A stretch of 51,760 nt of DNA from Bdellovibrionales bacterium RIFOXYC1_FULL_37_79 (GTDB taxonomy: Bacteria; Bdellovibrionota; Bacteriovoracia; Bacteriovoracales; Bacteriovoracaceae): assembly GCA_001770015.1 (NCBI GenBank), contig MEQB01000019.1, forward strand, positions 1-51,760, written 5' to 3'. A program made the position numbers and the translations under genes. How positions within the stretch are numbered: position 1 is the first letter of the stretch; the number at the start of each line of letters is the position of its first letter. Shown piece after piece: positions 813 to 48,043 of this stretch. The notes beneath the pieces are model-generated. The model did no database searches, was not told the origin of the DNA, and saw nothing but the letters and a program-made list of their open reading frames with translations.

Positions 813-3800
813 ATGAAATATTATTTAATACTTTTACTAGTTGTCAGTTTTACAGGTGCTCTTTTTCAATTAAGCGCCAGCGAGATATTAAATATTCTTG
901 ATGGTAAAACCGAGATAAACCTCAAAGATGTAAAAGTGGATGATCCTTTGTATCCTCCAATGATTTTAGTGGATTTATTAAAAAAATCTAAAATCGAAAA
1001 CCCTGCGTTGATGATAGAAAAATTGGAGGCGATCTTACATACTAAGGATTTTTCCAATCAAACACTCGGCAAATTAGCCTTCAGTAATAATACCTTCATC
1101 GTGGGTACCGCTGATTCATTTAGATTATGGCGCGAACTTTTATATATTTGCCTGGGAAGGGCATACTATGAAAATAACGATCCGGAAAAAGCCATTTTAT
1201 ATCTGCAAGGTATTCCCATTGATTCTCCTTTTTTCTCCCTCGCCAAGCTGGAACTGGGATGGGCCTATTTAAAAGGTCATAAATTGAAGGAATTACCCAA
1301 GTTAATCAATGAATTTAAATCGAAACATGTTGATCAATTATCAACTAACTTGAAAAATGAGTTTGCGCTTTTAAACGCATATTACCTCGTCAGCATAAAA
1401 GATTATAATGAGGCAATTAAATTGGCCGAAAGTTTCAATTTAAATCATGATGATGAGCAAAGTAATCTGCAACACAAACTGCTTGCTGAAGCTTGGTTTG
1501 GAAAATACTTAAAAGAGTTAAACGATCTGGATTTCAATAGCAAAGTAAAAATGCTTACCCAAATTACTGATCTTACCCAAACAATTGAAGAAAAATATTA
1601 CGATGCTGAATTTGCTTTTCTTGCCGGAGAAACCAATTGGCATCTGGCCAGTGTTTACCGGGTGATGGACCCTGATAAATTCAAGGACGTATGGTGGAAA
1701 CATCTGGTACGGGCCCAAGAATGGATGGAACCTTTTATTGATAAATCCATAAGCGACAATACCGCCTATATTTCCGAGGAAGCTATGTTTTTTTCCATAG
1801 CCCTCTTGTGGGAAATGGCAAAATTTGATGAAGCCAGTATTCGCTTGGTAGCACTCCCTCAACTTTTTCCCCAAGGCGAATATCTGGAAGACGTTTATCA
1901 GATGCTGGGCGATTACCATTACGACGAAAAAAGATTTGAAAAGGCGATCCATTACTACGACAAGCTGACCAAACATGGACAAGAGGACAAAACGGCATAT
2001 GGCGTTTATAAAGCCGCCTGGAGTTTTTACAATCTGGATAATAAATGGACTGCCTTAAGGCATCTGGAACGGCTTTACATCCATTACGCAAAAGAAACCA
2101 ATCAAAAGCCGCAGGAGCAAAGAGGACTTTTTAGAGAAGTCAGGGAAGATTTATTATCACTTATGGCCGAATTGATGGATTGGGACAAAGCATTGGAAGA
2201 AATTGAAATTTTTGGAGAAAAAAAAGATCAGAAATTAAATTTTAAGGCCGATTTAGCCTTGAGCTACAATAAAATTGGTAAGTATGATTATGCGGTAAAC
2301 ATCTGGATGCAATTATTAAAACACAACTATGCGCATCCCGCTTCTCCCCAGTGGCTATCCAGCATAGGCAAGGCGTATTTAGCTGCATCAAAAAAGCCCA
2401 AAATTGCCGATGTTTTCAATACTCATTTAAAATTAGTCATAGGTGCCCATAAAAATGAAAAAACTTTGTTGGAATTAGATGAGGAAATTTCAAAAATTAT
2501 CTTAACCGTCCACAAGGAAGCTAAGAAGTCTGAAAACCAGGAAGACTTCGTAGCAGTCGACCGTCTGTACAAGATTTATGAGGCTAACCTGCCAGACTCT
2601 TCTAACGCCAAAATCTGGTATTACGGGGCACAAAGATATGAAAATCTCTCGAATTTATGGCAAGCGATCAGCTGGTACAAAAAGGCGGCCATGATAAAAG
2701 ATTATGAAAATTTCCAGGATGCCGCTCATAGCGTAATCCGCATCACCAGCGGAATAAATGATCGACTAAGTCTTTCCCTCACTCCGCTTACCGAGCGGGT
2801 AAAAGAATATCGTAAGATTGTGGAAATAACCAAATGGTATATAGAAAATTTTCCCAAAGAAGAGTCAAGAAAATTAGCTGAATTCATTCATGTGGAAGCG
2901 CTTTATCATCAAAATGACCCCCAAGGTGCAAATGATTATATCGCCACCAGATTTAACAACCCCCATGCCGACCTTGAAACATCATGGAATATCTACTTGA
3001 GTCACAACAAACGGCTTTATGGTAACAAGGAATGGGTATTGACTAATGAATTGGCGGAAAAAGTCTTTTTAAATATTCATAAATTGAAAGAGCAATGGGC
3101 CAATGCCCTGGCGAAAATTTATCAAGAAAGTGCTTTTCAAGCAGCCTACCTTCTTGAGAAAAAAGAAAATGTATCAATTGAGGAAATGATCACATGGTAT
3201 CACAAATCGGGTTATAGAAAGCACCACAATTATTTTGATCTCAATTTGAGTCTACGGTCATGGCATAATCTTTTTGCTTTTTCCCTTGAACATTTAAAAC
3301 ACCATGATTTCCAAAAGCAGCTTGAACTTTTCAAACAAGTTAAGGAAATTCAAACTTCCGAGGTTTTTGATAATAAAAATTTACTTTTTAACATCCACAA
3401 CATGGCAGCCAAATTTCATACCAGGACTAATGCAATTTATTACAAGGCCCAGGATTATTTTCTGGCTTCCCAATTTACCGCTGAAAAAGAAGAAAGTATC
3501 TCTCTCATTTGGGATGCCATGCTCATTTTTGCCAGTTATCATGATGAAAAAAACTTTCTGACATGCCTTGATATCATCTCTACCCAAATGCCATCCTTTA
3601 TCAAAAGAGCCGATCGACAAATCATGCTGGGTCGCTTGTATTATTATTTAAAAGATTATAAAAATGCTTGGAATATTTTAAAACCTCTTATGCAAAAGGA
3701 ATTGGAAACCAAAACTGCCCTACTTTTTCTGGACATCTATACCAAATCAAAAAATACTAATGCGAAGGTCTTTGAAGAAATGGAAGAACAAAAAAAGAAA

Positions 3801-39748: not shown

Positions 39749-41860
39749 TTATCGGACATTCATGCCCGTGTAGAGCTTCCCTGCATAAATAATGGGAGGA
39801 ATCGTGCCACCAGATTGAAAACTGGTGGTAAAGTCAGTTAACATGACCGTCCCCGCTTCAGTACCGTCACTTCTGAAAAAATTATAGGCATCATTTTTCT
39901 GGGCCCAGAAATAAATTTTTCCGGCCAGTAACGTGAGATGTTTGGGGGAAGAACCGGTTAAACCTGCTTCAATATCCTTAACAAGAACAGTCCCTCCATC
40001 CGTTCCGTCGCTTTTCCATAACTCAACTCCATGTACCCCGTCATCGGCGGTAAAATAAAAAATACTGTTGGTGGAATCCCAAATCATGGGTTCTTCTCCA
40101 GCAGATGAACCGCTGGCACCCGATCTTATATCTTTTATCATGACTGTTCCACCACTGGTACCATCCGTCACCCATAATTCTTCCCCGTTAATACCGTCGT
40201 TGGCATAAAAATAAACCAGCCCGGAAGGGCTTAAAACCGGACGATTGAATTCTCCCCAGTCAGATGGATCAATGTCCTTAATCAAAGTTCTCACTCCTGA
40301 TGCTATGTAGTGCGGCTCAAATCCCATGCTACTTTCCGCCAGGGTCTTAAAATACATTCTTGAATTTGATGTATCACTGACAAAATTTTTAGCATTATTT
40401 GATGTAGCTGGAGAGGTGGCCTGACTGCCACTATTGAGCGTTCCATCGGTGTAAAACATCGACATCGAAGCTACCGTGGGGCCAAAATTATTATAATAAA
40501 TATTGCTGCCATCTGAACCAATAAAGTTATACTCTGCCAGCATTTCCTGATTAGAAGACATATTGACATTTTTAACCAACTCCCTATTACCGGACACTCC
40601 CGTGGACATATGCAACTCATCGCCATTAACTCCATCGTTGGCATAAAAATAAATTTTTCCAGTATTAGCAAAATAAAAAATCTGGGAATCAAATCCAGGA
40701 TAAGAATCCCCTGACGGATTGATATTATCAACTATCTCTGTCCCTCCCAAGGTACCATCCGTAACCCATAATTCATTCCCGTTTATACCATCATCACTCC
40801 AAAAAAAGGCTTTATTTAAGGCCGTTATAGTTTTAAACCCAGTCGGATTCGAACTGGCTACCCCTGGACTGATGTCCCTTAGCAGAGTCGTGCCCGCGGT
40901 GGTCCCATTACTCACCCACAGTTCATTTCCAGTAACCGCACTTGCCGCAAACACCAAATTGGAACCGGCTAAAGCCATTTGTTTATCCGCTGATATTCTG
41001 ACCTCTTTGAGAGGAGTAATCAAATTGGATCCGTTTTCAATTTTTACGAGGTTAAAAGCCCCACTCCTGGATATGGGCAGATGCAGATCGTACTCATACG
41101 GAGAAATCTGAATTACCCTCGGGTCAAGTTCCGCCGACAAACCCCTGGGAAAGACAAACGACTGGGCCAGTGGCGCAAGACAATTGGGACCAGGGTAATA
41201 TTCAATTATAAATGGAACCCCTGTTCCATTTTGAAGTGGATCAATATCCCAAACAGGCATGACCATGTTCAAGTTATAACTGAAAGGGAACACCCATCCG
41301 CTCCCGCTGGATATTGACAAGCAATCACTGGATATTCCCCTCTGATAGAGAAACTCCCCGGTAAAATTTTTAACAAAGTAACGGATTTTTACTCCTGCAT
41401 CGGTATAAGGTAAATCAGAAACCGGACAAGTAATCCCATCACTTTCACACAAAAGTATTCGAAATTTTCTTGGCAAGGATGAGTTTTGAATGGTTAGTTC
41501 AACAATTTTCTGTCCTCCGGTCAATTGTATAACATCTGTTTGACCAACATACATTTGAGTACTATTTTGAAAAAGATAATTATCATCGCTGGCAAGACCA
41601 TAAAATTTATAATTACCGTTTTTGACCCAAACACCGTCGAGGGAAAGATCTCCTGGTTTATAGTGAATACTTCCACCATCTCCCGGTGATGATAAATTGA
41701 TCCCATAGACATTAAGTCCGCCAACAAGTTCCATAAGAGAGGTTGCACCAGATTTTTGGTCATTGTGGGATACAAAAAAGATTCTGGTGTATCCTTCCTT
41801 GGCAAGTTTATCAGCACAACCAAGTAACATTAAAAGTAATAACCAACTAACAATATTCAT
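39749..41860 (-). CDS. ELWxxDGT-repeat lipoprotein
   Basis: A 703-residue lipoprotein: signal peptide with lipobox LMLLGC (Cys15). Residues ~15-300 are a beta-rich N-terminal region with several Cys. From about 300 onward at least six degenerate repeats occur, e.g. GNELWVSNGTTAGT, GNELWVTDGTLGGT, GEELWVTDGTSGGT and GVELWKSDGTDGGT, the ELWxxDGT repeat that forms beta-propeller-like blades. Surface-exposed outer-membrane location and a binding role are likely (inference). Confidence 0.82.
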   Translation of the reverse strand: MNIVSWLLLLMLLGCADKLAKEGYTRIFFVSHNDQKSGATSLMELVGGLNVYGINLSSPGDGGSIHYKPGDLSLDGVWVKNGNYKFYGLASDDNYLFQNSTQMYVGQTDVIQLTGGQKIVELTIQNSSLPRKFRILLCESDGITCPVSDLPYTDAGVKIRYFVKNFTGEFLYQRGISSDCLSISSGSGWVFPFSYNLNMVMPVWDIDPLQNGTGVPFIIEYYPGPNCLAPLAQSFVFPRGLSAELDPRVIQISPYEYDLHLPISRSGAFNLVKIENGSNLITPLKEVRISADKQMALAGSNLVFAASAVTGNELWVSNGTTAGTTLLRDISPGVASSNPTGFKTITALNKAFFWSDDGINGNELWVTDGTLGGTEIVDNINPSGDSYPGFDSQIFYFANTGKIYFYANDGVNGDELHMSTGVSGNRELVKNVNMSSNQEMLAEYNFIGSDGSNIYYNNFGPTVASMSMFYTDGTLNSGSQATSPATSNNAKNFVSDTSNSRMYFKTLAESSMGFEPHYIASGVRTLIKDIDPSDWGEFNRPVLSPSGLVYFYANDGINGEELWVTDGTSGGTVMIKDIRSGASGSSAGEEPMIWDSTNSIFYFTADDGVHGVELWKSDGTDGGTVLVKDIEAGLTGSSPKHLTLLAGKIYFWAQKNDAYNFFRSDGTEAGTVMLTDFTTSFQSGGTIPPIIYAGKLYTGMNVR

Positions 41861-42880: not shown

Positions 42881-44017
42881 TTATCTTACTAGAAAATTAA
42901 TTGCCGAATTGACTAAATGGTTTTCCTTGGAAGGATCTCCACTTTCAAAATTAATAAAAACATCTGGCCTAATACCATTTTGTTCCCACTGCTGGCCTTG
43001 TGGACCATGAATTTTTCCGATTGTATATTTAATCGCATATCCATTATCGAGATTTAAAACACTCTCCACAGAGTTTTTTCCTTGCGTAGGATTGCCAATC
43101 ACCGTGGCTTGCTTCAGTGCTTTAAGAGCATTTGAAAAAACTTCAGCAAATGATCCCGTATCTCCATCCACCAAAACCGCCCATTTACAATTTACGTCAA
43201 TCCCGTCTTGCGTAGCCTTGAAGATTTCATATTTACCATTATTTTTTTCCACCTGAAACAGTAAATCTCCTTTATGGGCAAACAGCTCCAAGGTTTTAAC
43301 GCCTTCTTGAAGTGCACCTCCAGAATTGGCCCTTAAATCAACCATGCAGCTACTTGGCTCGCTCTTTTTCATTTTCATAAGAGCTTCTTTAGTTTCGTCA
43401 TAAGTTTTGTTATTGAAAGATTTTATTCTTAGCATCCCAAGCTGGGGACGAGGAAACGAAAGATCAACATTTTTATAAATAATTTTTTTTCTCAAAACAT
43501 TTTTTACCATCAAATCCCCGTTTCTTACGATAGACAATTTCACTTTGCTACCTTCTTTTCCCCGGATTTTAAGAATAACATCACTGATATGCTTGGCACT
43601 GGTAACTAAATAATCATCAATCTTGATAATTTCGTCTCCTGCTTGAATACCTGCATCCCGGGCCCCACCCTCTAATACCTCGGTAACCAGCGGATAACGA
43701 TCTCCTTTATCCTTATCAAATTTCAAGACAGCACCTATCCCGGCAAATTCCCCGGATAATTCGGCATCCAAAAAGTTTTTTTTCTCCGGTATTAACAGAG
43801 TGTTAACTTTAAATTTAGCGGCACCCTGATTTTTTTCATCTAATTTTTGCAAAACCCCCCTGACAGCCCCCTCATAGATTTCACTATCAGTGAGCTGATA
43901 CAGGGAGGTTTGCTTGATAGTCTTAATTACTTTTTCAAATTCTTTTTTACTAAAATCCTCCTGTGCTCTAATATATGTTACAAAAAATAAAAAAATCATA
44001 ATCAGTAATTGCTTCAT
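42881..44017 (-). CDS. S41 carboxy-terminal processing protease with PDZ domain
   Basis: A 378-residue exported serine protease: signal peptide MKQLLIMIFLFFVTYIRAQ, PDZ at about 90-170 (GIGAVLKF, GGARDAGIQAGDEIIKIDD), and the S41 catalytic domain with Ser289 in DGDTGSFAEVFS and Lys314 in TQGKNSVESV. The 25-residue Ser-Lys spacing equals that of Prc/CtpA. AAGGAG before ATG 44017 rules out a longer form that would run into the upstream gene. It follows an ECF sigma and a likely anti-sigma gene in one operon, so it may process the anti-sigma or a sensed envelope protein (inference). Confidence 0.88.
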   Translation of the reverse strand: MKQLLIMIFLFFVTYIRAQEDFSKKEFEKVIKTIKQTSLYQLTDSEIYEGAVRGVLQKLDEKNQGAAKFKVNTLLIPEKKNFLDAELSGEFAGIGAVLKFDKDKGDRYPLVTEVLEGGARDAGIQAGDEIIKIDDYLVTSAKHISDVILKIRGKEGSKVKLSIVRNGDLMVKNVLRKKIIYKNVDLSFPRPQLGMLRIKSFNNKTYDETKEALMKMKKSEPSSCMVDLRANSGGALQEGVKTLELFAHKGDLLFQVEKNNGKYEIFKATQDGIDVNCKWAVLVDGDTGSFAEVFSNALKALKQATVIGNPTQGKNSVESVLNLDNGYAIKYTIGKIHGPQGQQWEQNGIRPDVFINFESGDPSKENHLVNSAINFLVR

Positions 44018-44030
44018 AAAAAACTCCTTT

Positions 44031-44408
44031 TTAAAGTAAAGCCGATTTATTATTTTCCTCCCACACGAGAGGCCTTGATATTTCTTTTTCCATATATATA
44101 CCTGATTCCAACCCATCGCTTGAACCAAGCAATATAAATCTTGCTTCCACCAACAACCCTATCAAAAATGAGATGATCAACAGACAACCGGTAGGTGCCA
44201 CTTTCCATAATAGGTTTTTTTGCTTCGAGGGCACATAGCATTCAGTGGGAGCCAACTTGACTTGCTTTTGAATTTGCCTGATGCTTTCAATTCTTTGCAC
44301 CAAGTTTTGATTATCCTTTAACATCAAATTAATTTTTTCCAATAAGTCAGGAGAGGTATCCCCCATCAAATAACCTAAAATTTGTTCATCAGTGATTTTA
44401 TCTGTCAT
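44031..44408 (-). CDS. probable anti-sigma factor
   Basis: A 125-residue protein with a cytoplasmic N-terminal helical domain (about 1-65; DEQILGYLMGDTSPDLLEKI), one membrane helix (about 71-88) and a short periplasmic tail. No zinc-binding HxxxCxxC is present. It starts 2 bases after the ECF sigma gene, the usual arrangement of a sigma/anti-sigma pair; ACGGAG within the sigma gene's last codons is its ribosome binding site. Confidence 0.65.
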   Translation of the reverse strand: MTDKITDEQILGYLMGDTSPDLLEKINLMLKDNQNLVQRIESIRQIQKQVKLAPTECYVPSKQKNLLWKVAPTGCLLIISFLIGLLVEARFILLGSSDGLESGIYMEKEISRPLVWEENNKSALL

Positions 44409-44410
44409 AT

Positions 44411-44869
44411 TTACTCCGTAAATCTTTTTTTTAAAGTACCAAGCGCCTTGTTTAGCCTACTTTTCACGGTACCTTCAGGTATTTTTAAAACTTCTGAAAT
44501 TTCCAAAATGCTCAATTCTGCCTTTATTCGAAGCAGCAGTACTTCTTTTTGCCTAGCAGGTAAAACCGTCAACATCTCCCATACACCTGCATCATCTCTT
44601 ATAACTTCAAAGGGAAAAATGGCATCCCAATAATCTTTTAAATTAATCATCATTTTTAAAAACCGATTATTGGCCCGAATTTTATTTAACGAACGATTAC
44701 GAACCGCTTTAAACAGATAGGCTTTTTCCACTTGCTTTTTATTTTCAAAGCATTCCAAAAAAACTTCTGAAACAACATCCTGGGCATCTTCAAAGTTTCT
44801 TATAATGGATGCTGAAAAGGTGACTAAAGCCTTTTCGTATTGTTTAAATGTCAAATCAGCATTTTCCAT
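44411..44869 (-). CDS. ECF-type RNA polymerase sigma factor
   Basis: A 152-residue group 4 sigma factor. Region 2 (about 10-75) has IIRNFEDAQDVVSEVFLECFEN and KAYLFKAVRNRSLNKIR. Region 4 (about 95-150) has LPARQKEVLLLRIKAELSILEISEVLKIPEGTVKSRLNKALGTLKK, with the helix-turn-helix for the -35 box. First gene of a three-gene operon with the anti-sigma and S41 protease; probably an envelope-stress or cell-surface switch. Confidence 0.88.
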   Translation of the reverse strand: MENADLTFKQYEKALVTFSASIIRNFEDAQDVVSEVFLECFENKKQVEKAYLFKAVRNRSLNKIRANNRFLKMMINLKDYWDAIFPFEVIRDDAGVWEMLTVLPARQKEVLLLRIKAELSILEISEVLKIPEGTVKSRLNKALGTLKKRFTE

Positions 44870-45017: not shown

Positions 45018-45686
45018 CTAAGCTGCTTTCAAAAGAATCTTTTTGCCTTTGTAGAAGCAGTAGTTCTTACCAATGAAACTGATTTTATCTTGATCTAAAA
45101 TAATTCCACATCCATCCGGGCACGCATATAAGGGGCGATTTATTTTATTTGAATATTTTTTTAATTCATCTTCATAACGAATCGAGTTTTTGTAATGCGG
45201 AAAAAATTCAAAATCAACCAAATTCATGGAACTTAGGTTGGTTACCTTTTCCTCATTTAAATCACAATCAAAAGAAGGAAATGAAGCGGTCTTCACGTTG
45301 GGAGTCATGATAATGGCCCCAGCACTTAATCCACTAAGTATCCCCCCCTCTAAGGCATATTTTTTAAGTTTAGGAATAAGCCCTGCCTCTTTTAAGGTTT
45401 TTAAAAAATAGAAGGTATTTCCTCCACCTAAATAAATAATATCACTTTTTAAAACTTCCCTAAGCAGGATATCCGTAAAAGGAATATCCGCTGGAAAATT
45501 AATCATCCGAGAAATATGAAATTTTTTAAAATGTCTAGCAAAATAAGAAAATTCAATATCTGCATCATAAGAACAGGCCGGTATGTATGTAACCACCGGA
45601 TTATTTGATTTCACCAACTTAATCAGGGCATGATTCAACGAGATGTTTTCATCCTCATCACCACCACCATAAAAAACAAGTCTCAT
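45018..45686 (-). CDS. peptidase S51 (dipeptidase E-like)
   Basis: A 222-residue cytoplasmic serine peptidase-like protein: GGGDEDENIS at the N terminus, IIYLGGGNTFYFLKTL, and the nucleophile elbow LSGLSAGAIIM with Ser121. S51 enzymes hydrolyse Asp-X dipeptides or cyanophycin fragments. Its ATG overlaps the stop of the SelO-like gene (ATGA) with AGAAGG just before, so the two are translationally coupled. Confidence 0.82.
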   Translation of the reverse strand: MRLVFYGGGDEDENISLNHALIKLVKSNNPVVTYIPACSYDADIEFSYFARHFKKFHISRMINFPADIPFTDILLREVLKSDIIYLGGGNTFYFLKTLKEAGLIPKLKKYALEGGILSGLSAGAIIMTPNVKTASFPSFDCDLNEEKVTNLSSMNLVDFEFFPHYKNSIRYEDELKKYSNKINRPLYACPDGCGIILDQDKISFIGKNYCFYKGKKILLKAA

Positions 45687-47515
45687 ATACCTTCTCTGTA
45701 TGATCTTACAATTTCCAAAAGGTTTTTTACTTCTTTGGTATTTTTAATTTTATGCCTTTCCAGCTTCCTGATTTTGGATGGATCATGATTTTGAAAATAT
45801 AAAAAATCATGCATTATTTTATATATCTCATCAGGTCCATGCTTTATCGACAGTATCTTATCAACAATAATAGTTACCGCATCTCCCGTAATACGGTCAT
45901 ATTTATTAATGACGGAGGAACGCATGGTTAATTCACACAGGATATGCTTGACATTTTTTTTCAGATTAATTGCCACCAGCTTAACCATGTGCATGTATTT
46001 ATCTTGAAATAAACTGATCATTTGTTTTCGATATTGATTTAAAAGCAGATCCTTCCTGGTTGCATAGCTGGATTTTATTATTTCGACAAACTCTTCGTTG
46101 GTCAAAAAGCTCTCCCGAAACTGCATAATCTGTGGATACTCTCTCAAAATATCCCTCATACAAAAAATTGCTGACCAGTTGATGCCATCTGCAACTTTTT
46201 TTATCCCCTTGATTGATTTTATTCTTTCAAAATAGGAAAAACTAGATCGAAAATCCCTTACCATTTTTCTGTGTTTATGAAGCAGATAGGCAACCTGTGA
46301 ATTATTAAACCCTATTTTAAAAAGCAGATTCTTGTCTTTTTGAAATTCAAATATTTTATCAAACTCCTTCAAAAGGCCCTGATGCTCAAAACTTTTGATA
46401 GGGCGCTTGGCCTTATTTTTTAAAAAATCCGTCATTTGGACAAATGTCTGAACCAGATACTTCGCCTTGATTTTTTGTTCGGAGATGGAAGTCGAATACC
46501 GTTCCACATCATCGTATCTATACTCATGGTGAAAAAGACCAAATTGTCTGACTGATCCATAATCGATGATTGAACCATCCATTAATATATTATCCCCGTC
46601 CCAATCTAGCCAACAAAAAATATACTCATCTTCAAACTGAGCCACCATGGTGGCAAATACATTTGCCATCTTGGCTAAAAAATAATCATATCCAGCTATC
46701 TCATCCTTAGGGTAATCCGACCAAAAACCATTTTCTTTTTGTCTTTTTACATAATAATCATACATTTTTTTTAAATACTCATAATTATTTTGCTTAAGCG
46801 GGGCAAAAAAATGAGAAGGTCTTATCAGATTAGGATGGGCCCGGACGTTTATTGCCAGGCCATTATTATGCTCAATGATGGCCAATACTCTTTCTGTTCT
46901 GATACCGTTTAAATACATCACCTCACTAAATAATGATGAAGACACCCCTTCATCTTTTTCTGAGCATCCACACCCATAAGAAATTGAAGGATCACCCGTC
47001 TTAAAAAATTTCTTTTGCTTGGCACTGGCGGGAGAAAGTCTAGTGGCACCTGTTCCGCAACTTGAAATATCCCAGGTAATTCCATGATGCGTAACCTGGC
47101 CGTTCCAAACACTCCTTCCATCTCCGGAGGTTTTCCCCTGTTTGCTCGGATGCTGAAGCTGTAAATACCTGGTTGCCATATAGGTATTTTCCTTTATGGT
47201 ACCCGGCGGATGTTTGATATTATGAATATTATCGTACTCGTTAATAATCACAATATTAAACGTTTCCAAAATCTTTTTTTCCAATCCAGCATTCATTTTT
47301 TCCGGATGATCCTCTTCTAGTAATCCCAGCTGTTTCGCCAAGGCAAAATTGAAATAATAAACCTTGCCGGATTTCTTTTGCCTCACTTTATATTCAACAT
47401 AAGCTTCAGGCACATGGTTTTTTAACGGATGACTCCCGTTTAGTTGTTCAAATTGATCATACGGGTGGCAAATTTTTTTAGGAACAATCTTATTATGATG
47501 TAATGATGTTTTCAT
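45683..47515 (-). CDS. divergent SelO/YdiU-like pseudokinase
   Basis: A 610-residue protein, about 100 longer than usual SelO. SelO proteins are pseudokinase-fold enzymes that AMPylate Ser/Thr/Tyr of other proteins. Recognised stretches: GDGRSVWNGQV, SLFSEVMYLNGIRTERVLAII, INVRAHPNLIRPSHF (two Arg seven apart, as in SelO) and GDNILMDGSIIDYG (Asn and Asp nine apart, metal/ATP site). By alignment the ATP-binding Lys of the KGAG loop is replaced (WDISSCGTGAT), and the GDGRA loop after it by a Cys-containing insert. The C-terminal ~250 residues are helical and unassigned. A TTG start at 47554 is the alternative; neither start has a clear ribosome binding site. Coupled to an S51 peptidase. Confidence 0.72.
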   Translation of the reverse strand: MKTSLHHNKIVPKKICHPYDQFEQLNGSHPLKNHVPEAYVEYKVRQKKSGKVYYFNFALAKQLGLLEEDHPEKMNAGLEKKILETFNIVIINEYDNIHNIKHPPGTIKENTYMATRYLQLQHPSKQGKTSGDGRSVWNGQVTHHGITWDISSCGTGATRLSPASAKQKKFFKTGDPSISYGCGCSEKDEGVSSSLFSEVMYLNGIRTERVLAIIEHNNGLAINVRAHPNLIRPSHFFAPLKQNNYEYLKKMYDYYVKRQKENGFWSDYPKDEIAGYDYFLAKMANVFATMVAQFEDEYIFCWLDWDGDNILMDGSIIDYGSVRQFGLFHHEYRYDDVERYSTSISEQKIKAKYLVQTFVQMTDFLKNKAKRPIKSFEHQGLLKEFDKIFEFQKDKNLLFKIGFNNSQVAYLLHKHRKMVRDFRSSFSYFERIKSIKGIKKVADGINWSAIFCMRDILREYPQIMQFRESFLTNEEFVEIIKSSYATRKDLLLNQYRKQMISLFQDKYMHMVKLVAINLKKNVKHILCELTMRSSVINKYDRITGDAVTIIVDKILSIKHGPDEIYKIMHDFLYFQNHDPSKIRKLERHKIKNTKEVKNLLEIVRSYREGI

Positions 47516-47616
47516 GCTTAGGAAATCGGATCTTGACAAAAAATATTTAGACAATTGAGCTTTAAATGTAGGGAGTTATAAATTTTTCCCCTTTCTAAAC
47601 AGGAATTAGGCATTCA

Positions 47617-47659: not shown

Positions 47660-48043
47660 TCAGATTAATGCGCTATCTTTTTTAGGTTCTTTTATCCTAG
47701 GCGTACTTACAATTTCTCCATTAATAATCACGGCAAAATTATTGCCCTTGTACTGTTTTATTCCCCTTTCAAAATCTCTTTGGGTTTTTTCATCTAACTT
47801 TATCAAATCAGTTTTCTTGCTAAGCAATTTCTCGTAGGAAAAGTTTTCAACCCTCAGAATCGGCTTTTTGGTAAGAGGTAGTAAATGTCTGTTATTAAAA
47901 ACCAGTGCATTCTCGTCCTCTGTTTTTAAATTTTTAACCGGCACAATTTCCAAAGTACCCTCTTTGATCCGTTTTATTTTGGACGGGTTCATATTCATAA
48001 GCGATGAGAACAAAAGCGTAAGTAAAATAAGCTTTGATTTCAT
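47660..48043 (-). CDS. small secreted protein with SecD-head-like segment
   Basis: A 127-residue protein with signal peptide MKSKLILLTLLFSSLMNM. The C-terminal part, NNFAVIINGEIVSTPRIKEP, is like the phrase found in the periplasmic P1 head of SecD (V-I-x-G-x-V-x-S-x-P-x-I-x-x-P). The rest has no known motif and no SecD membrane part follows. GGGAGG five bases before the ATG supports translation. Confidence 0.6.
   Translation of the reverse strand: MKSKLILLTLLFSSLMNMNPSKIKRIKEGTLEIVPVKNLKTEDENALVFNNRHLLPLTKKPILRVENFSYEKLLSKKTDLIKLDEKTQRDFERGIKQYKGNNFAVIINGEIVSTPRIKEPKKDSALI

Follow-up and report, generated by a model that had tools for sequence, protein, structure and literature searches.

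An apparently distinct branch of SelO-like proteins that lacks the ATP-site lysine and is paired with an S51 family peptidase

The window analysed here, a 51,760-nucleotide contig of Bdellovibrionales bacterium RIFOXYC1_FULL_37_79 (MEQB01000019.1), encodes a SelO-like protein whose gene overlaps that of an S51 family peptidase (Table 1). It is well supported that the protein belongs to a distinct, strictly conserved branch of SelO. The branch drops the lysine and glutamate of the SelO ATP site, regains an aspartate at the position of the kinase HRD motif, and keeps the metal site and the arginine pair. Together, the SelO-like protein and the S51 peptidase suggest a two-enzyme module with what may be a new reaction or substrate. 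The reading we favour, with a probability of roughly 0.4, is that of an active, nucleotidyl-transferring SelO-like enzyme that would share an aspartate- or asparagine-containing substrate with the S51 hydrolase.

Table 1. Coordinates of the gene pair and of the residues and motifs discussed in the text; positions are those of the window.
Feature	Position	Strand	Remark
SelO-like protein, 610 aa	45683..47515	(-)	ATG start at 47515
GDGR motif, residues 131-134	47114..47125	(-)	common to canonical SelO
C153, position of the gamma-phosphate Lys (K113 of P. syringae SelO)	47057..47059	(-)	variable in the branch
Residues 162-182, two-part insert including TGDPSISYGC and invariant C182	46970..47032	(-)	alignment
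S192-S193, in place of helix-C Arg-Glu (R135/E136)	46937..46942	(-)	alignment
R225, equivalent to R176 of SelO	46841..46843	(-)	91/91
R232, equivalent to R183 of SelO	46820..46822	(-)	91/91
K241, branch-conserved basic residue	46793..46795	(-)	K 88, R 3 of 91
Catalytic loop W302-L-D-W-D-G-D-N309 (D304, D306, D308, N309)	46589..46612	(-)	
D318, metal-binding Asp of the DFG-equivalent DYG	46562..46564	(-)	91/91
Conserved tail R-E/D-G-L/I, replacing the Cys-containing SelO tail	45686..45697	(-)	
ATGA, SelO-like stop TGA overlapping S51 start ATG	45683..45686	(-)	4-nt overlap
S51 family serine peptidase, 222 aa	45018..45686	(-)	Pfam Peptidase_S51 E 1e-28

Residues of the SelO-like protein are numbered from Met1 at 47515; alignment A1 and the structure model are without Met1, and positions there are one lower. 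An in-frame TTG at 47554 is an alternative start that would add 13 residues. At the other end of the gene, a GAGAAGG sequence in the final codons is a possible ribosome binding site for the S51 gene. Upstream of the pair lies a small protein (47660-48043, (-)) with a weak match to the SecDF P1 head, which at E 5e-4 is below the cut-off. Just downstream (42881-44869, (-)) are genes for a sigma factor, a small protein of no assigned family and a PDZ-S41 peptidase, and these are not conserved with the SelO-S51 pair in relatives. The window also encodes a protein of 703 residues with repeated ELWVTDGT-type units (39749-41860, (-)) that has no Pfam match at E 1e-3.

Kinship with SelO, proposed in the initial annotation, was recovered both by sequence profiles and by the structure prediction suggested there as a check. 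The NCBIfam YdiU model (NF000658) matches the window protein at E 9e-9, far below the model cut-off, and also matches 22 of 26 aligned relatives. Pfam, searched to E 1, gave no match for the window protein, not even to SelO (PF02696), and the same Pfam family matches several of its orthologues above its cut-off. A profile of the branch aligned by hhalign, at E 3.5e-17, with canonical SelO as represented by 27 proteins from these bacteria, and a sequence profile search of the PDB reached SelO at E 0.09 only. The AlphaFold model, built from an alignment of 26 relatives, has a mean pLDDT of 91.1 and a pTM of 0.90, and the modelled protein has the SelO fold. Its best nine Foldseek matches in the PDB are all SelO/YdiU (E 6e-13), and VIA-align gives Z scores of 26-27 to solved SelO/YdiU structures over 434-457 residues, with the next family at 8.7. 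Chance resemblance to SelO is ruled out by these Foldseek, hhalign and VIA results.

In SelO of P. syringae, Lys113 is supported by Glu136 and, together with Arg176 and Arg183, holds the gamma-phosphate of a flipped ATP; the metal ligands are Asn253 and Asp262 (PMC8097203). A survey from 2012 found the lysine almost invariant and the glutamate invariant in SELO (PMC3281104). Neither residue occurs at its SelO position in any of the 91 branch proteins. The initial annotation correctly reported the loss of the lysine but named serine as its replacement; a gap-free stretch of the hhalign alignment (WELQLKGAGRTPYS / WDISSCGTGATRLS) instead places Cys153 opposite the SelO lysine. Among the 91 proteins the column holds Cys in 78, Arg in five, Ser in four and Val, Gln, Gly and Ala in one each, which together with the alignment rules out a Lys-to-Ser substitution. 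Because the column varies within the branch, residue 153 is unlikely to be catalytic. At column 193, where the helix-C glutamate is expected, Thr (57), Ser (18) and Ala (14) are found and Glu in none. The lysine and glutamate appear to form a single feature that disappeared as a whole from an otherwise conserved metal site, and their joint loss would fit a changed reaction.

Much of the remaining active site is retained. Canonical SelO has 67 positions with at least 90% conservation, and the branch keeps 28 of these, among them GDGR, GxG-T, both arginines, Asp-Asn and DYG. The spacings also hold, as initially described: R225 and R232 are seven residues apart, like R176 and R183, and N309 and D318 are nine apart, like N253 and D262, with all four residues present in 91 of 91 proteins. 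Three further basic residues, R116, K241 and R323, are conserved in the branch (R116 is Arg or Lys in every protein), and K241 is a candidate substitute for the lost lysine. The catalytic loop reads WLDWDGDN in place of HGVMNTDN in SelO. This part of the alignment is also gap-free, and D304, present in 90 of the 91 proteins, falls on the valine of HGV, the SelO motif that stands in place of the kinase HRD (PMC3281104), at the position of the HRD aspartate; D306 is invariant. The loss of the helix-C Arg-Glu, the gain of D304 and D306 and the loss of the C-terminal cysteine were absent from the earlier reading.

The Cys-bearing insert described at the outset is present as two pieces, residues 162-171 and 176-182, in a loop that ends in YGCG, and C182 is found in 91 of 91 proteins. 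An extra C-terminal part of about 250 residues, claimed in the same annotation, did not hold up: the structural alignment extends to residue 608 of 609, against 465-475 of SelO, and roughly 130 additional residues, dispersed as inserts, enlarge the C-terminal part of SelO itself. An additional C-terminal domain is ruled out by these two observations. The C-terminus does differ in sequence. A cysteine two residues from the end, a common but not universal feature of SelO, is found in none of 88 branch proteins versus 26 of 27 canonical SelO proteins, and 75 of the 88 end in REGL, REGI or RDGI. Ribosome binding for the next gene is not the whole role of the tail, as loci with no S51 gene within 900 bp downstream have similar tails (RESL in L099, for example). 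The canonical SelO proteins of these bacteria (L111-L137) have two types of tail, SCSS or FCGT, which suggests that there may be two canonical subtypes.

Orthologues of the SelO-like protein, at 43-57% identity, occur in 29 of 59 relatives. In an alignment search of named genomes, the best 80 of 301 relatives were from Bacteriovoracia and other Bdellovibrionota, and also from Nitrospirales, Scalindua (Planctomycetota), Thiogranum and other proteobacteria, with one record titled Deltaproteobacteria. The distribution in Nitrospirota is patchy, with the gene in 6 of 78 genomes and in one of these in fragments. In a quick tree, in which the position of long-branched intermediate proteins is unsure, all 34 branch members form one clade (SH-aLRT 100) and canonical SelO another (99). 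Phyla are intermixed inside the branch clade, which suggests that the branch may have spread between phyla by horizontal transfer. Canonical SelO and the branch occur together in 17 of the 59 genomes, the branch alone in 12 and canonical SelO alone in 13. No canonical SelO was found in the genome of the window, which is one of the 12. Replacement of canonical SelO by the branch is not the rule, given the 17 genomes that carry both. A pseudogene was ruled out, as the reading frame is open in nearly all relatives and 67 of 610 positions are at least 99% identical among the 91 branch proteins. A phage or plasmid gene was also rejected: phages gave no match, viral contigs none, and two haloarchaeal plasmids only weak matches of canonical SelO type. 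Isolates of Bacteriovorax and Halobacteriovorax have the module in their genome records (L032, L051 and L094), which makes it genetically testable.

The partner matches Pfam Peptidase_S51 (PF03575) with 100.9 bits against a cut-off of 23.9. S121, H164 and D142 are present in all 67 aligned S51 partners, and D191, present in 97%, aligns with Glu192, the third triad residue of PepE. By profile matches in the PDB the closest solved structures are Lmo0363 (E 1.6e-23) and aspartyl dipeptidases, and the matches to PepE and Lmo0363 point to the same Ser and His as the partner alignment. The partner scores far below the NCBIfam equivalog cut-offs for PepE and cyanophycinase. In 68 of 79 SelO-like loci the S51 gene is at position +1 and is the sole neighbour at a fixed place; any other family occupies one fixed place in at most 18 of the 79. 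The translational coupling proposed at the outset is borne out by the overlap of 4 nt, which recurs in 56 loci and is the arrangement of most Bdellovibrionota; in 11 loci the S51 gene lies within 40 nt and in two slightly further, while six have no downstream S51 gene and four are at a contig edge. In Nitrospirota the two genes lie next to each other in divergent orientation (G059, G081, G108 and G095), at L103 the S51 gene is upstream on the same strand, and in G055 it is on a different contig. These differing arrangements lend independent support to the pairing, and a distinct SelO branch coupled to S51, as first proposed, is well supported, and far beyond the genome of the window, by both the single clade and a partner kept across arrangements and phyla.

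Co-occurrence points in the same direction. Among the 59 relatives, 25 have both genes, four the SelO-like gene only, none the S51 orthologue only and 30 neither (Fisher p 8e-13); in the Nitrospirota sample the corresponding numbers are 4, 2, 0 and 72 (p 1e-5). As the compared genomes are related, both p values are too small and overstate the evidence. No S51 orthologue without the SelO-like gene was found among the sampled relatives and Nitrospirota genomes. An S51 orthologue is absent from four of the 29 carrier relatives and from the distant carriers G060, G061, G063 and G065, so S51 is not always needed. A search for known defence systems with PADLOC gave no match. Across the loci, no small ORF was found to be conserved beside the pair in varied contexts, which speaks against a RiPP with a precursor peptide.

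On this basis the SelO-like protein would be a metal-dependent enzyme in which the SelO (kinase) fold is kept and the phosphate pocket rebuilt. That it is catalytically active is very probable, since there is hardly another explanation for a metal site that is invariant across phyla. Its reaction would most likely be nucleotidyl transfer to a substrate, with an NTP or a dinucleotide as the donor of AMP or another NMP; kinship with SelO and the kept arginine pair argue for this chemistry, and we give it slightly less than even odds over others. The aspartate at the HRD position could equally mean phosphoryl transfer. The co-produced S51 hydrolase may act on the same substrate or product, cleaving a form of it that contains Asp or Asn, and the pair could thus be a maker and a breaker, or a modification and a processing enzyme. 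The idea of a shared substrate of this type follows from the specificity of S51 enzymes, which cleave Asp-X dipeptides and cyanophycin (PMC9239234), and is possible but on the doubtful side. In its most specific form, the proposal is that the product of the Lys-less enzyme with its regained aspartate is an aspartyl or asparaginyl compound, either free or protein-bound, that carries a nucleotide or phosphate and is then cleaved by S51. We regard this version as unlikely; if true, it would give the kinase fold a new chemistry of reversible modification or signalling.

The strongest competitor to nucleotidyl transfer is a reversion to phosphotransfer, in which D304 would act as the base, ATP would bind in the ordinary orientation, and R116 or K241, each Arg or Lys in 91 of 91 proteins, would replace the lysine. 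WNK kinases offer a precedent in taking their lysine from elsewhere (PMC3281104). However, both arginines by which SelO holds the flipped ATP are invariant in the branch, and fold and loops resemble SelO rather than kinases (Z 26-27 versus below 9), so that we consider a reversion unlikely, if worth keeping in view. An adenylate-forming ligase, which would activate a carboxylate as acyl-AMP and join it to an amine or hydroxyl, with S51 reversing or trimming the bond, is improbable but has some points in its favour. The siderophore synthetases SbnC and AcsD are the next structural matches after SelO (Z 8.0-8.7), MchC, a remote SelO relative, acts in siderophore-peptide joining (PMC3281104), and S51 enzymes cleave aspartyl amide bonds (PMC9239234). 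A Z score near 8, however, may reflect only a common kinase-like arrangement, and the pair has no conserved precursor-peptide gene beside it.

Two further possibilities fare worse. A scaffold for the S51 peptidase, or a regulator of it, that is itself catalytically dead would agree with the tight coupling of the genes and with the absence of the Lys-Glu pair, a loss that usually marks a pseudokinase, but all 91 proteins keep the metal ligands, both arginines, GDGR and the acidic loop unchanged and several genomes have the SelO-like protein without S51, and we think this reading has little chance. Least probable of all is a hydrolase of NAD or another dinucleotide with S51 elsewhere in the same pathway: SelO/YdiU splits NAD to NMN and AMP (PMC13391479), the model matches NAD-bound YdiU structures and a dinucleotide would make the gamma-phosphate lysine needless, but the C-terminal Cys/Sec reported to be critical is gone. 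With its lost, regained and kept residues, the branch is a natural test of how a kinase fold can change from phosphoryl to nucleotidyl transfer or back, and its S51 partner gives a lead to the substrate and, perhaps, to a dedicated eraser.

The branch can be set against several known systems. It shares with SelO/YdiU (PF02696, NF000658) the full-length fold, GDGR, the GxG loop, the arginine pair and the Asp-Asn and DYG metal site, and differs in lacking the ATP-site lysine, the helix-C Arg-Glu and the C-terminal Cys/Sec, in its catalytic loop and YGCG insert, in its greater length and in its S51 partner. Judged from sequence, it would be a variant of the SelO kind that has gone unremarked; it is not filed as a SelO AMPylase, because defining features of SelO that were tested were not found in it. 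SELO2 of the 2012 survey is an animal paralogue (PMC3281104) and is not this branch, and no paper on the branch or on a SelO-S51 pairing was found in the open-licence literature. Other SelO relatives were encountered in passing. L030 (G022, 1390-3732, (+)) encodes 781 residues with a SelO domain that keeps the lysine (PF02696, E 1.4e-12) fused to a NadD-type nucleotidyltransferase (PF01467, E 1.7e-12), a striking combination in view of the reported NAD hydrolysis by SelO. A SelO-like protein of the same type at L141 (G008:C2, 398733-400085, (-)) has no NadD-like part, has a hydrophobic N-terminus and also keeps the lysine.

Among the more distant systems, the microcin maturation proteins MchC and MceJ, a remote SELO subfamily, likewise work with a partner enzyme and have RP(A/S)HF around the second arginine, as in the protein of L166. 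Unlike the branch, MchC keeps the lysine (QVKGIG), and no peptide precursor was found beside the branch genes; an hhalign comparison of the branch with a single MchC sequence was not significant (E 0.04). A Bdellovibrionota genome (G031) holds an MchC-like SelO relative of about 700 residues at L142 (1327-3429, (+)), with IKGIGQTSLVG, RPAHF and SPSN. The S51 partner shares the Ser-His pair and the family signatures with PepE, cyanophycinase and MccG, and unlike these it is found only with the SelO-like gene in sampled genomes. MccG, an S51 enzyme with a Ser-His-Asp triad, cleaves the carboxamide of aspartyl-nucleotides that derive from processed microcin C (PMC9239234); it belongs to clade V and resembles the partner in having Asp as the third triad residue. 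Finally, WNK (with no Lys) kinases also have a kinase fold without the usual lysine, but they are another branch of that fold, and in the proteins described here the helix-C glutamate is gone as well and ATP is expected to be flipped.
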